In this document: positions 9,770 through 46,542 of the stretch, piece by piece
Numbering within the stretch: position 1 is the first letter of the stretch
How the letters are laid out: each line of letters begins with the position of its first letter
Assembly (NCBI RefSeq): GCF_024347135.1
Contig: NZ_AP024907.1
Coordinates: forward strand, 2,967,001 to 3,031,000
DNA from: Vibrio spartinae
Lineage (GTDB): Bacteria; Pseudomonadota; Gammaproteobacteria; Enterobacterales; Vibrionaceae
Direction of reading: 5' to 3'
Length of the DNA: 64,000 bases
Made by a program: the position numbers and the translations under genes
Notes under the pieces: model-generated
Told to the model about the DNA's origin: nothing
Databases searched by the model: none
The model's input: the letters and a program-made list of their open reading frames with translations, nothing else

Positions 9770-12409
9770 ATGGATGCTACTAATATGCATGTTCAATCCC
9801 CACTTACACTACAAGATAAACAACTGACGCTCGCCTCGCTGAAAAATCAGCTGGAAATGTTTGCTGATGAGCAAAAACAGCAATTTCTGGATGCTCACTT
9901 AGTACCGGATTTAGTTTATGGCCGAGCAGAATATATGGATCAATTGCTGCAACGTTTATGGCAGTCTTACAATTTCCATCAGATCGACGAACTCACCTTG
10001 ATCGCGGTCGGTGGTTATGGCAGAAAAGAACTTCATCCGTTGTCAGATATCGATATTTTAATTCTTTCCAAACAAAAGCTTCCGCCCCAGGTTCAGACAC
10101 AGATCAGCAAATTCATTACACTTCTCTGGGATTTAAAACTTGAAGTCGGTCATGCCGTCAGAACCATTGCAGAGTGCAGTTTGATTGGCCGTGAAGATTT
10201 AACCGTCGCAACAAACCTACAGGAAGCCAGAAGGCTCGCCGGTTGCGAAGAGATATTTCATCAACTTAAACTCATCATTCTGTCAGAATCGTTCTGGCCG
10301 ACAGAGACGTTCTACCGAGCCAAAGTTGAGGAACAGAAAGCACGTCACGCCCGTTATCACGATACCACTTATAATTTAGAACCCGATATCAAATCAACGC
10401 CCGGTGGATTGAGAGACATTCACACGCTCAGTTGGATAGCCAGACGACATTTCGGGGCAACCTCATTATTCGAAATGAGTAGCCACGGTTTCCTCACTGA
10501 TGCCGAATACCGGGAGTTGGCTGAATGTCAGGAGTTTTTATGGCGGATACGTTTTGCGCTGCATCTAGAACTCAAACGCTACGATAATCGCCTAACGTTT
10601 GCCCATCAGGCTCAAGTTGCTGAACATCTGGGTTTTCAGGGAGAAGGCAACCATGCTGTTGAGATGATGATGAAAGAGTTTTACCGCACACTGAGACGGG
10701 TGGCTGAACTCAATAAAATGTTACTCAAGCTCTTTGATCAGGCTATTCTGGATGAAGACAATACTTCCCTGCCGACAATTATCAATGACCATTTCCAAAA
10801 ACGTGGCAACCTGATCGAGCTTCGGACCGAAGGACTTTTCCAACAATATCCGGAAACGATTCTGGATATGTTCATCCACATTGCGAACGATTCTCAGATT
10901 GAAGGCGTTGCCCCGACGACCATGAGACAACTCAGAACAGCCCGACGCCGACTCAGTTATTTTTTACACACGCTCCCTTCAGCCCGAGAGAAGTTCATGG
11001 AATTGGTCCGGCATCCGAATGCGCTGACCAAAGCTTTCAGTCTGATGCATCGTCATGGCGTCTTATCCGCGTATCTGCCGCAATGGAGTCACATTGTCGG
11101 ACAAATGCAGTTCGACCTCTTTCATGTTTATACTGTCGATGAACACAGTATTCGTTTGCTCAAACATATCCGGATTTTCAGTGATCCCAAAAATCATGAA
11201 CATCATCCGATCTGCTGTGAAATTTACCCTCGCTTGCAAAAGAAAGAACTACTGATTATCGCGGCTATCTTCCATGATATCGGTAAAGGACGTGGCGGTG
11301 ACCATTCAGAAATTGGGGCGGTAGAAGCCTATGATTTCTGTATTGAGCATGGTTTATCAAAGCCCGAGGCAAAATTGGTATCATGGCTGGTGCAAAATCA
11401 TTTACTGATGTCGGTAACCGCACAGCGACGCGATATCTATGATCCGGAAGTGATTATCGAGTTTGCGAAAACAGTACGTGATGAAGAATATCTTGAGTTT
11501 CTCGTCTGTCTGACCGTTGCGGACATTTGTGCAACAAATCCGGAATTGTGGAATAGTTGGAAAAGAACCTTACTGGCGGAACTGTTTTATTCGACCCAAC
11601 GGGCACTTCGCAGAGGTCTGGAGAACCCGGTAGATGTCAGAGAGCGAATCCGACACAACCAGCAACTCTCTTCAGCTTTATTAAGAAAAGAAGGCTTTAG
11701 TCTGCAAGAGATTGATTCGTTATGGCAACGTTTCAAAGCAGACTATTTCTTACGCCATTCGCATAAACAAATTGCTTGGCACTGTACGCATATGTTGCGC
11801 CACCAAGCACCAGATGAACCGCTGATCTTAATCAGTAAGAAAGCCACCCGTGGCGGCACGGAAATTTTTGTTTATACCAAAGATCAACATGCACTGTTTG
11901 CTACAGTTGTCGCTGAACTTGACCGCAAAGGCCTGAATGTTCATGACGCTCAGATCATGACCAGTAAAGATGGTTACGCACTCGATACATTTATGGTGCT
12001 GGACCAAAATGGAGATACCATTGATGCGGAGCGCCATCAAACACTGACATCTCATATCCACCGGGCTATCGGACAAGGAACGCCAGCCCTGCATAAAACC
12101 CGCAGAACCCCCAGTAACTTAAAACACTTCACGGTCAAAACGCAGGTTGATTTTCTGCCGACCAAGAGTAAAAAACGCACACTCGTTGAATTTGTAGCAC
12201 TGGATATGCCGGGGTTACTGGCAACGGTCGGTGCAACATTTTCTGAACTGGGATTTGATATTCACGGTGCCAAAATCACGACCATCGGTGAAAGAGCTGA
12301 AGACTTATTTATCATTACCAGTACCACACATGGCAAGCTGAGCATTGAAGAACAAGAAAATCTGAGGCAGGTTTTAATCGAAAATGTAGATGTGCTTATG
12401 CCCCACTAA
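9770..12409 (+). CDS. glnD: Bifunctional PII uridylyltransferase/uridylyl-removing enzyme
   Basis: Nitrogen sensor: at low glutamine it uridylylates PII proteins, and at high glutamine it removes UMP, controlling glutamine synthetase and the Ntr system. The 879-aa product shows the nucleotidyltransferase motif GGYGRKELHP at residues 81-90 with Asp93 and Asp95, a central HD hydrolase domain (FHDIGKGRGGDHSEIG near residues 500-515) and two C-terminal ACT domains (about 700-780 and 805-879) that bind glutamine. The start is the first ATG; no strong ribosome binding site is visible, and an ATG five codons later is possible. Domain order and length are standard. Confidence 0.97.
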   Translation: MDATNMHVQSPLTLQDKQLTLASLKNQLEMFADEQKQQFLDAHLVPDLVYGRAEYMDQLLQRLWQSYNFHQIDELTLIAVGGYGRKELHPLSDIDILILSKQKLPPQVQTQISKFITLLWDLKLEVGHAVRTIAECSLIGREDLTVATNLQEARRLAGCEEIFHQLKLIILSESFWPTETFYRAKVEEQKARHARYHDTTYNLEPDIKSTPGGLRDIHTLSWIARRHFGATSLFEMSSHGFLTDAEYRELAECQEFLWRIRFALHLELKRYDNRLTFAHQAQVAEHLGFQGEGNHAVEMMMKEFYRTLRRVAELNKMLLKLFDQAILDEDNTSLPTIINDHFQKRGNLIELRTEGLFQQYPETILDMFIHIANDSQIEGVAPTTMRQLRTARRRLSYFLHTLPSAREKFMELVRHPNALTKAFSLMHRHGVLSAYLPQWSHIVGQMQFDLFHVYTVDEHSIRLLKHIRIFSDPKNHEHHPICCEIYPRLQKKELLIIAAIFHDIGKGRGGDHSEIGAVEAYDFCIEHGLSKPEAKLVSWLVQNHLLMSVTAQRRDIYDPEVIIEFAKTVRDEEYLEFLVCLTVADICATNPELWNSWKRTLLAELFYSTQRALRRGLENPVDVRERIRHNQQLSSALLRKEGFSLQEIDSLWQRFKADYFLRHSHKQIAWHCTHMLRHQAPDEPLILISKKATRGGTEIFVYTKDQHALFATVVAELDRKGLNVHDAQIMTSKDGYALDTFMVLDQNGDTIDAERHQTLTSHIHRAIGQGTPALHKTRRTPSNLKHFTVKTQVDFLPTKSKKRTLVEFVALDMPGLLATVGATFSELGFDIHGAKITTIGERAEDLFIITSTTHGKLSIEEQENLRQVLIENVDVLMPH

Positions 12410-31021: not shown

Positions 31022-32086
31022 TCACCAATCAAAACTCATCTGCTCTTTTTCACTTTGTTCGACATTCAGCCCAACCGACAGACCAATAAGACGAATCCCC
31101 CGACCTTGTTGTCTCGACAACGCATCTCGCAATAATGCAGTAAAAAAGTCTTTATCTAATCGCTGTTGTTTATGCTCAACTGTCGTTTGCTTAAAATCAT
31201 CAAATTTCAATTTGATCCCTTGGCGGATGATGTCCTTTTCCGGGGATACTTTTTCAAGTCGAGTGACTAAATCTGGATATAATCGGTCAATCACGTCTAA
31301 ACATTCGGCTTCAGTATAAATATCCGCACTGAATGTCTTTTCAACACCGACGGACTTCCTCACTCGAGAAACTTCAACGGCTCTTTTATCGATGCCGTGA
31401 CACCTGTCCCACAGTGTTTGACCAAACCGGCCAAAATGTTTGACCAGTAGATGATGCTCATATGCTTTGACATCTTTGCCATAAAACAACCCTAACTTGT
31501 GTAATTTTTCTAATGTGACTTTTCCTACACCGGGAATCTTCCCCAAAGCCAACGCCTCAATAAAGGAATGCAAATCGTTCGGGGGAATCACACAAATCCC
31601 ATTTGGTTTATTTATATCTGAGGCCACTTTCGCAACAAATTTAATGGGAGCAACCCCTGCACTCGCAGTTAAATTCAACTCAGATTCAATGGTCTTTCTG
31701 ATATCTTGAGCAACCAACGTCGCAGAACCTTGAAACAGCGTAGTATGCGTTACATCCAAATAGGCTTCATCTAAAGATAGCGGTTCAATCACATCGGTAT
31801 ATCTGTTAAAAATTTCACGGATTTGCTGAGAAACAGCTTTATATTTCTCCATATTTCCAGAAATCACGGTTAGATGCGGACATAACCTGAGTGCATGCGC
31901 GGTTGGCATTGCTGAGCGAATGCCATATTGACGAGCCTCATAGCTACAGGTAGAGAGAACCCCGCGTCCAAACTGAGATCCTCCGATAGCCAATGGAATC
32001 CCTCTCAGACTGGGATTATCTCGCGCTTCAACCGCTGCATAATAACAATCAAGATCTATATGAATGATTTTATTCGTCATTGTCAT
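31022..32086 (-). CDS. dinB: DNA polymerase IV (Y-family, translesion)
   Basis: Error-prone polymerase that bypasses bulky and alkylated lesions. The 354-aa product has the catalytic Asp11 in IIHIDLDCYYAAVE and the Asp-Glu pair in SLDEAYLDVT, helix-hairpin-helix segments around LGKIPGVGKVTLEKLHKLG, and the little-finger domain. The residues after Cys14 are Tyr-Tyr, so a Tyr is the likely steric gate. The C-terminus ends in QMSFDW-type sequence (SEKEQMSFDW), resembling a beta-clamp binding tail. A consensus LexA box overlaps its promoter, which indicates SOS control as in E. coli. Confidence 0.97.
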   Translation of the reverse strand: MTMTNKIIHIDLDCYYAAVEARDNPSLRGIPLAIGGSQFGRGVLSTCSYEARQYGIRSAMPTAHALRLCPHLTVISGNMEKYKAVSQQIREIFNRYTDVIEPLSLDEAYLDVTHTTLFQGSATLVAQDIRKTIESELNLTASAGVAPIKFVAKVASDINKPNGICVIPPNDLHSFIEALALGKIPGVGKVTLEKLHKLGLFYGKDVKAYEHHLLVKHFGRFGQTLWDRCHGIDKRAVEVSRVRKSVGVEKTFSADIYTEAECLDVIDRLYPDLVTRLEKVSPEKDIIRQGIKLKFDDFKQTTVEHKQQRLDKDFFTALLRDALSRQQGRGIRLIGLSVGLNVEQSEKEQMSFDW

Positions 32087-32167: not shown

Positions 32168-32202
32168 TACTGTCATTATATACAGTATATGATTTTTCAT
32201 AA
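32168..32202 (-). promoter_or_regulatory. dinB promoter with embedded LexA box
   Basis: TACTGTCATTATATACAGTA (32168-32187) fits CTGT-N8-ACAG exactly with an AT-rich centre. On the minus strand TTATGA (32197-32202), a 16-bp spacer and TATAAT (32175-32180) form a good promoter whose -10 lies within the LexA box, so bound LexA would shut it off. It is 82 bp upstream of the dinB ATG. Confidence 0.9.
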
Positions 32203-35926: not shown

Positions 35927-36994
35927 TCAGAACAGCGCCATTTGTTCCCCACAACGGGGAGGTAACCGGAAATGACTGCTATCTAATATACCGGATTCAC
36001 GCCGATCGAACCCGGATTTACGCCTTGCCAGATGGAAGCGTTGCCGAATGAAATCAGCATAGACGCCACTGCCGGTCATTCGTTTACCAAACTCACCTTG
36101 ATAAAGCTGTCCGCCATGCAGACTACGAAGGTGGCTAAGAACTCGCTCAGCTCGCAGAGGAAAATGGATGTGTAACCAATCTTCAAATAAAGGGGCAACC
36201 TCATGAGGTAAACGTAACATCACATATCCGACACGCTCGGCACCAGCTTCAGCACTCGCCTGTACGAGTGTCTCCATTTCATGATCGTTAATAAAAGGGA
36301 TCACGGGTGCGATCATCACGGTCACTGGTATATTTCTCTCGCTCAACGCTCGAATCATTTTCAAACGGACAGCTCCCGGAACAGCTCTGGGTTCAAGTCT
36401 GCGCGATAAGTCATTATCGAGCGTTGTTAAGCTGACACCGACATGAACCAGATGTTCTGATGCCATTGATTGCAATAGGTCGATATCCCTCAAAATCAAA
36501 GCGCTTTTCGTGATCAAAGAAATTGGCTGTTTATATTCATAGGCAATATTCAACAATTTCTGGGTGATCTTTAGTTCTTTTTCTATGGGTTGATAGGCAT
36601 CGGTATTGATACCAAGCGCAATGGGTTGACACTGATAATTCGGATTTCTGAGTTCTTTTTCAAAGATCTCGGGAGCATTGATCTTTGCTGTCAGACGTGT
36701 TTCAAAATCAATGCCGGGAGAAAGGTCCAGATACGCGTGTGTCGGTCGGGCAAAACAATAAATACAACCATGCTCGCAGCCTCGATAGGGATTCACCGAA
36801 AGACGGAACGGAATATCCGGAGACTGGTTCGATGTAATCAAAGTCTTTGCGTGTTCGTAGCGAACCTCTGTGTCCGGTGAAGACACAGAAGAAAAGCCAT
36901 CCTCTGCTTCGATAATGCGGACGTCAAAACGCCCGGGGATAGCAGACATCGTTCCACGACTTTGAAACCGCTTCTCTGATACATCGCGTGACAT
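35927..36994 (-). CDS. PA0069-family radical SAM protein (SplB-like)
   Basis: A 355-aa radical S-adenosylmethionine protein of the SplB/COG1533 group, homologous to spore photoproduct lyase and to Pseudomonas PA0069. The cluster motif Cys73, Cys77, Cys80 (RGCEHGCIYC) binds the 4Fe-4S cluster, followed by ARPTHAYLDLSPGIDFE and LITKS segments typical of this group. The reaction of PA0069-like proteins is not established to my knowledge; repair of DNA damage is a reasonable guess from homology. A near-consensus LexA box lies 15 bp in front of the ATG, supporting a role in the SOS response. The ATG (36992-36994) has only a weak ribosome binding site. Confidence 0.9.
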   Translation of the reverse strand: MSRDVSEKRFQSRGTMSAIPGRFDVRIIEAEDGFSSVSSPDTEVRYEHAKTLITSNQSPDIPFRLSVNPYRGCEHGCIYCFARPTHAYLDLSPGIDFETRLTAKINAPEIFEKELRNPNYQCQPIALGINTDAYQPIEKELKITQKLLNIAYEYKQPISLITKSALILRDIDLLQSMASEHLVHVGVSLTTLDNDLSRRLEPRAVPGAVRLKMIRALSERNIPVTVMIAPVIPFINDHEMETLVQASAEAGAERVGYVMLRLPHEVAPLFEDWLHIHFPLRAERVLSHLRSLHGGQLYQGEFGKRMTGSGVYADFIRQRFHLARRKSGFDRRESGILDSSHFRLPPRCGEQMALF

Positions 36995-37008
36995 AACAAC
37001 TCACAATG

Positions 37009-37024
37009 CTGTTTATACATACAG
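37009..37024 (-). promoter_or_regulatory. LexA box in front of the SplB-like radical SAM gene
   Basis: CTGTTTATACATACAG is an exact CTGT-N8-ACAG site with an AT-rich centre, 15 bp from the start codon at 36994. On the minus strand a TATAAA overlaps it, so the site would cover the promoter. The rest of the 36995-37301 spacer shows no gene or other named element. Confidence 0.82.
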
Positions 37025-45972: not shown

Positions 45973-46542
45973 ATGAAAAAACTGGTTATTGCAGCGACTG
46001 TCGCACTGCTTGCCGCCTGTTCAGGCCCACAGCAGCAACAAATCAACTTTGCCCCTCAACCGGCCCTCAGCCAGAGTGATATTGTGAAAGGAAAATCTTT
46101 TACCCTGATGAGTAAAGATGTCAGAACCTCTCAATATGTTGCGTTAGTTGATAGCGGCCGTGCACATATCGAACCGGTTCATGCGCGCCAGAATGTGCGG
46201 ATCGCGATTGAGAATGCATTGTCACAACAATTCTCTTCTCAAGGTTTTACAACCAGCGTCAATAGCGAAAACTCAATGACGGTAGAGATCCAAGAAGCAC
46301 TCGTTTCAGTGAAGCATTCGATGATGGAAAGTGAAATGAACGCAAGTGTTGTGCTTGAAATCACGGCTGAAACGCCAACCGGAAAATTAGTAAAAACTTA
46401 CCATGGTACCGCAAAGAAAACGTCAACATTTAGTGCATCGAATGATGATATCGAGATGGTCTTTAATGATGTCGTGAATAATGTTCTGAAAAAGATTGCC
46501 CAAGATGACGAGCTGAAAAACTATATGCGGGAGCACTTTTAA
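45973..46542 (+). CDS. yajG: YajG family lipoprotein
   Basis: A 189-aa putative lipoprotein. The start is the ATG at 45973 with AAGGAACC before it; MKKLVIAATVALLAACSG is a lipoprotein signal peptide with the lipobox LAAC and lipidated Cys16. The body has the YajG family features (FTLMSKDVRTSQYVALVD near residue 43). Its function is unknown, though in E. coli it also sits next to ampG. It overlaps the cyclophilin gene by one base. Confidence 0.9.
   Translation: MKKLVIAATVALLAACSGPQQQQINFAPQPALSQSDIVKGKSFTLMSKDVRTSQYVALVDSGRAHIEPVHARQNVRIAIENALSQQFSSQGFTTSVNSENSMTVEIQEALVSVKHSMMESEMNASVVLEITAETPTGKLVKTYHGTAKKTSTFSASNDDIEMVFNDVVNNVLKKIAQDDELKNYMREHF

Follow-up and report, generated by a model that had tools for sequence, protein, structure and literature searches.

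A PA0069-family radical SAM gene with a conserved LexA-type box and a C-terminal clamp-type motif: a candidate SOS-induced enzyme for damaged DNA

The locus

The stretch of DNA analysed here, called the window, comprises 64,000 nucleotides of Vibrio spartinae (contig NZ_AP024907.1, positions 2,967,001 to 3,031,000 of the forward strand). Within it, positions 35927 to 37024 hold a gene for a radical S-adenosylmethionine (SAM) enzyme of the PA0069 family, preceded by a candidate site for the repressor LexA. An earlier reading made from the letters alone (the sequence-only reading) had singled out this gene as a homolog of SplB, the spore photoproduct lyase (SPL), under LexA control. The main features are as follows; papers are cited by PubMed Central accession, in each case from excerpts.

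35927..36994, minus strand: PA0069-family radical SAM gene, 355 amino acids, ATG start (NF033668 and PF04055)
36755..36778, minus strand: codons of CX3CX2C (residues 73-80), the [4Fe-4S]/SAM cluster motif, invariant in 83/83 aligned rows
37009..37024, no strand assigned: exact LexA-type box CTGT-N8-ACAG, coding strand CTGTATGTATAAACAG, with TATAAA inside, 14 bp before the ATG
35930..35944, minus strand: codons of QMALF (residues 351-355), a putative beta-clamp-binding motif, from motif counts and the consensus of PMC13254535

The product matches NF033668 (PA0069 family radical SAM) with 463.3 bits against a curated cut-off of 360 over residues 12-355, and PF04055 (radical SAM) with 62.9 bits against 29.5. 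Residue counts for the family come from an alignment of 83 rows of relatives, in all of which C73, C77 and C80 are kept, so the assignment to a PA0069-type radical SAM protein with CX3CX2C at residues 73-80 was sound. Judged from its fold, which is the partial barrel of SPL, and from the cluster motif, the product would form a 5'-deoxyadenosyl radical as a radical SAM enzyme. Its nearest relatives among the matches listed are those of Vibrio gazogenes (95% identity), V. ruber and V. rhizosphaerae.

The exact CTGT-N8-ACAG at 37009-37024 includes TATAAA on the coding strand, as had been reported; the distance to the ATG had been put at 15 bp and is 14 bases by count. The window contains four exact matches of the pattern where 0.68 are expected. 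Two lie inside open reading frames (ORFs) and were set aside: the match at 11133 falls in glnD, identified by family search, and that at 46017 in an ORF for which the top NCBIfam hit stays below its cut-off.

Conservation of the box

The first sample consisted of the best 80 orthologue loci of a longer list, scanned from -200 to +60 of the start equivalent. An exact LexA-type box is present at 69/80: 68 within this range (CTGT-N8-ACAG at 56, GTTC-N7-GTTC at 12) and one, in L067, at -206. The controls were an equal downstream stretch, the reversed patterns and the rest of the loci. They gave 0/79, 0/80, and 4 and 6 matches of the patterns in 592,440 bases, respectively.

The type of box follows the lineage. 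Gamma- and betaproteobacterial loci have CTGT-N8-ACAG, alphaproteobacterial loci have GTTC-N7-GTTC, and no locus has both; we take these to be the LexA motif types of the respective lineages. Wherever the record title shows the lineage, the box is of the type expected for it. Loci labelled Alphaproteobacteria have the alpha type in 10/10 cases and the gamma type in 0/10, a count made by label alone and independent of the box, and 25 of the 26 loci labelled Pseudomonas carry an exact gamma-type box. Two further loci with the alpha box lie outside those ten, L054 (‘Proteobacteria bacterium’) and L070. The latter (NZ_VCCH02000001.1) is recorded as Mycobacterium sp. KBS0706, and as its protein and box look alphaproteobacterial it is probably mislabelled. 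The PA0069 orthologue at L133, a locus of the second sample described next and counted there as negative because it lacks CTGT-N8-ACAG, has TTAGTAATAATACTAA upstream, presumably the LexA motif of the Xanthomonas/Xylella type.

A survey of 398 genomes sampled from the phylum found the family above its curated cut-off in 171. A second sample was taken from the genera among the matches listed in this survey, with one genome for each of 72 genera; their class is known only as same class or same phylum as the window. One of these loci, L134, is the same DNA as L029 of the first sample and the other 71 are distinct. An exact box was found in 55/72, with no crossing: within the window's class 17/26 genera have the gamma type, and 38/46 genera of other classes have the alpha type. 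The reversed controls gave 2/72 and 1/72. Thirteen genera that already had loci from the phylum survey were kept out of the 72 and scanned apart; their 30 loci have the alpha type in 30/30 (reversed controls 0/30 and 4/30).

Outside the phylum, four actinobacterial loci of the related Rv2578c type were scanned. L090 and L198 have an exact GAAC-N4-GTTC near the start and L089 has it with one mismatch; it was not found in L199, where a form with a five-base spacer can be seen by eye. The link to LexA therefore probably extends to the Actinobacteria, as far as four loci can indicate.

The upstream regions of orthologues, whose comparison had been proposed in advance as a check, show a conserved box at 69/80 loci and also in all seven Vibrio carriers described below. 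The claim that the link holds across distant gammaproteobacteria was, if anything, understated: it extends through the alpha, beta and gamma Proteobacteria, with one motif type in the beta and gamma classes and another in the alpha class. That the LexA motifs of two such groups diverge markedly has been published (PMC3323433). The box tracks these changes of motif from lineage to lineage, which places the family near the common core of the SOS response, and from this pattern the gene is almost certainly under LexA control.

The C-terminal clamp-type motif

The sequence-only reading overlooked a second feature, a clamp-type motif at the very C-terminus. For the clamp-binding motif, the excerpt of PMC13254535 gives QL[S/D]LF and, as revised forms, Q-phi-x-[LM]-[FL] and Q-phi-x-[LM]-x-[FL]. 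In the PA0069 family the exact ending Q[LMVIF]x[LMVI][FLYIM] is found at 67/80 loci of the first sample, at 29/30 phylum loci and in 57/120 listed relatives; among SPLs it is found in 0/120. The relaxed form Q..[LMFI][FLWYIM] occurs within the last 15 residues at 80/80 and 30/30 loci, in 118/120 listed relatives and in 2/120 SPLs. The two relatives without it have QWSLGF and QGCLPF, similar to the six-residue form. In the alignment Q351 is kept in 82/83 rows and L354 in 81/83. We consider it very probable, from the motif, that the PA0069-family protein binds the beta clamp. No open-access paper containing both ‘clamp-binding motif’ and ‘radical SAM’ was found.

Distribution in Vibrio and the link with dinB

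The gene is rare in Vibrio, being found in 7 of 196 sampled genomes at an expectation value (E) of 1e-50, own genome counted, and no other genome of the window's order is among the phylum-survey matches listed. All seven carriers have an exact box before the gene, with varying cores and the anchors kept. On the tree the Vibrio genes lie among Marinomonas-type sequences (P0006 and P0014 are Marinomonas), a placement that makes likely a transfer in which the box came along with the gene. The window also contains a second exact box, before a gene for a DNA polymerase.

31022..32086, minus strand: dinB (DNA polymerase IV), NF002677 496.8 bits against a cut-off of 256, C-terminus EQMSFDW
32170..32185, no strand assigned: second exact CTGT-N8-ACAG, 83 bp before dinB

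The C-terminus EQMSFDW of this DinB resembles a clamp-binding motif. A closer arrangement is found in another Vibrio, at L087 (G156, 448-2565), where dinB begins 15 bp past the stop of the PA0069 gene and one exact box precedes the first gene, which gives the pair the appearance of a two-gene SOS operon. The L087 dinB is 57% identical to that of the window, and the L087 PA0069 protein is identical on the tree to P0010 (V. quintilis). A conserved gene neighbourhood was also sought and rejected, as, with ORFs overlapping the gene excluded, at most 22 of the 80 loci share a neighbour cluster, and these are almost entirely Pseudomonas.

A proposed role on damaged DNA

Taken together, these features make it reasonably probable that the product is a radical SAM enzyme that is induced by SOS, tethered to the clamp and active on damaged DNA. 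A role in DNA damage had already been suggested for it and is likely, and a DNA lesion is the likely substrate. The whole is held with less confidence than its parts, which are not independent of one another.

LexA represses SOS promoters, and its RecA-triggered cleavage upon DNA damage lifts the repression. Here, LexA sitting on a box that overlies the promoter would block transcription, as the box and SOS biology suggest, and damage would release the gene through this cleavage. The product would make the 5'-deoxyadenosyl radical, while its last five residues, if the motif is a guide, would hold the beta sliding clamp. The clamp would bring it to primer-template junctions and to forks stalled at lesions, and there it might reverse or rearrange a DNA lesion. 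Such an enzyme would be to direct reversal what the clamp-bound DinB polymerase is to bypass.

Several points weigh against this proposal. LexA binding, clamp binding and the DNA substrate are all inferred, and SOS genes may act on targets other than DNA, for example in cell division. An exact box was not found at 11 of the 80 loci; L027 and L056 among them have the box with one mismatch ahead of the start, L016 likewise upstream when inspected by eye, and L024 shows, also by eye, a form with a six-base spacer. Nor was the exact own-class box found in 17 of the 72 genera, six of these in families f14 and f24; five of the 17 have it with a single mismatch. Over the whole genome the motif shows no enrichment: exact forward matches of CTGT-N8-ACAG number 74, and those of the reversed pattern 78. 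An exact match on its own is consequently weak evidence, and it is the conservation that is decisive.

The C-terminal motif has its own difficulties. The published consensus in its strict form, Q[LIVA]x[LM][FL], is present in the last 15 residues at 39/80 loci and at 29/30 of the phylum loci, and the QMALF of the window falls outside it through the Met at position 2. With Met admitted there, the figures become 66/80 and 30/30, with 3/1617 among neighbouring ORFs; the QMSLL of MutS is a clamp motif with Met. The background for the relaxed form, 13/1617 neighbouring ORFs or 11/1392 without those overlapping the gene, refers to stop-to-stop frames, many of which are not real genes. The connection with dinB is limited too. 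With the window DinB as query, the only match in the searched loci was in L087, and in the window itself dinB lies ~5 kb from the PA0069 gene with its own box. Finally, a link with ImuA and the mutasome was considered from co-occurrence in the phylum sample and rejected: the window's own genome has no ImuA above the cut-off and co-occurrence is not tight, with eight listed Vibrio genomes having ImuA above the cut-off and no PA0069 match. Matches to ImuA below the cut-off, mostly weak, were not counted as ImuA.

Alternative explanations

The enzyme might be SOS-induced and yet act on RNA, tRNA or a protein, for example in a modification made at times of damage. Radical SAM enzymes of similar fold work on peptides, RNA and cofactors, and the lack of a neighbour family common to more than 22/80 loci would suit such a role as well. 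This alternative seems unlikely, as the clamp-type motif and the SPL-like fold point to DNA, as does the dinB lying directly behind the gene in L087.

The C-terminal motif might instead be kept for folding, by packing on the core. In a predicted model residues 331-350 have a pLDDT (predicted local distance difference test score) of 83-86, and F342, just before the motif, is invariant in 83/83 rows; part of the tail probably does pack, and F342 may dock it on the core. The last five residues, however, drop to 67. The motif also slides along the C-termini, as in QLALFS, QLSLFDDGRG and QMDMFA and in the six-residue-like forms of P0011 and P0012, and the variants tolerated match those of clamp motifs. 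Conservation of these residues for folding rather than for clamp binding is rather improbable.

The protein could also be an SPL in a non-sporulating bacterium, splitting the 5-thyminyl-5,6-dihydrothymine that ultraviolet light makes in dry or dense DNA by the same chemistry. Among solved folds the SPL of Geobacillus (PDB 4fhc) is clearly the nearest, so the homology to SplB claimed from sequence stands as far as the fold is concerned; hhalign gives a probability of 62 and E 7.5e-5 over 68 columns. The published SOS control of splB homologues has been read in this way (PMC3323433, in the part seen). The resemblance does not go much further. Searches of PDB by sequence and by profile gave no SPL match, and PF20903, which the SPLs examined carry, has no match in the window protein at E up to 1. 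The hydrogen donor of SPL is C140, and Y98 is likewise functional; both are invariant in 18/18 SPLs. No Cys outside the cluster is invariant in the 83 rows, and the position of Y98, after the third cluster Cys, has Phe in 66/83, including the window protein, and Tyr in 17/83. The clamp-type end, near-absent from SPLs in either form, is a further difference.

Which residue of the PA0069 family pairs with C140 was approached in two ways. A forced full-length hhalign set C140 opposite the C122 region with zero confidence, and a run with -glob aligned four columns. Strand order, taken without coordinates, makes residues 129-130 the likelier counterpart. C122 is Cys in 53/83 and Pro, Val or Ala in 30/83, and there is no Cys at 129-130 in any row, so the conclusion that the donor cysteine is not conserved holds whichever position pairs with C140. 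SPL chemistry in this family is thus improbable, and an enzyme acting on DNA as proposed above would have to quench the substrate radical differently from SPL because the donor is not conserved.

That the box is a palindrome arisen by chance and regulates nothing, a view to which its lack of over-representation in the genome lends something, is scarcely credible given its conservation across the Proteobacteria with a motif that switches by lineage.

Comparison with known systems

SOS control of a non-spore SplB-like enzyme, which had been thought new, is already in the literature, and the regulation is therefore not new in kind. It was published for a splB-like gene in alpha and beta Proteobacteria (PMC3323433) and for splB-like genes in Bacteroidetes (PMC8565304), and gene neighbourhood has linked SplB-like enzymes to SOS genes (PMC3765255), as far as the excerpts go. 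Like the PA0069 family, the splB of PMC3323433 is predicted to be LexA-regulated in lineages with different LexA motifs. It is probably the same family, as PA0069-type genes of Burkholderia and Sinorhizobium carry such boxes. In the part of that paper seen, however, the trait was not observed in gamma-Proteobacteria and the enzyme was called a photolyase; here it is present in the gamma class and SPL chemistry is doubted.

PA0069 of Pseudomonas aeruginosa itself, which we assume to be under LexA control, belongs to the same NF033668 family as the window protein, with the NCBIfam status of hypothetical equivalog. No open-access paper naming both PA0069 and LexA was found, and of the excerpts that mention PA0069 one has it as a strain name and another in a list of microarray results (also with PA0669 and PA0670), neither with a function. 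The literature searched thus gave no function for a family as widespread as this.

The Rv2578c family (NF038135) of Actinobacteria is related to the PA0069 family. The window protein scores 225.2 bits against it, below the cut-off of 430, and is not a member. In 4/4 loci its proteins end in QxxL[FL], and 3/4 loci have GAAC-N4-GTTC exactly or with one mismatch, but the family forms a separate branch on the tree, subject to a long-branch warning. A Streptomyces member is annotated as putative SplB in the excerpt of PMC12924846. Distant radical SAM relatives also occur in Acidianus two-tailed viruses (H67-H70), with ~25% identity over half of the protein.

From SPL, the PA0069 family differs in having no PF20903, no conserved donor Cys, mostly Phe at the Y98 position and a clamp-type tail, and in not being a spore gene. 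Given the missing cysteine, an assay for SPL is probably the wrong one for it. Within the open-access literature searched, what appears to be new is the extension to the gamma class, the definition of the family, the absence of the SPL residues and, most of all, the clamp-type tail, which offers a concrete and cheap handle on where the enzyme works. We would venture, at somewhat short of an even chance, that the radical SAM enzymes of DNA repair include a second class apart from SPL, SOS-induced across the Proteobacteria and probably the Actinobacteria, held by the clamp at the fork and repairing a lesion through radical chemistry that does without the SPL cysteine donor. If this is true, the ‘splB photolyase’ labels in SOS papers would need revisiting.

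DinB shares with the PA0069 family both the box and a C-terminal clamp-type motif. DinB is a lesion-bypass polymerase, whereas the PA0069 protein has a radical SAM fold; if the proposal is true, direct reversal of lesions, instead of their bypass, would be coupled to the replisome.
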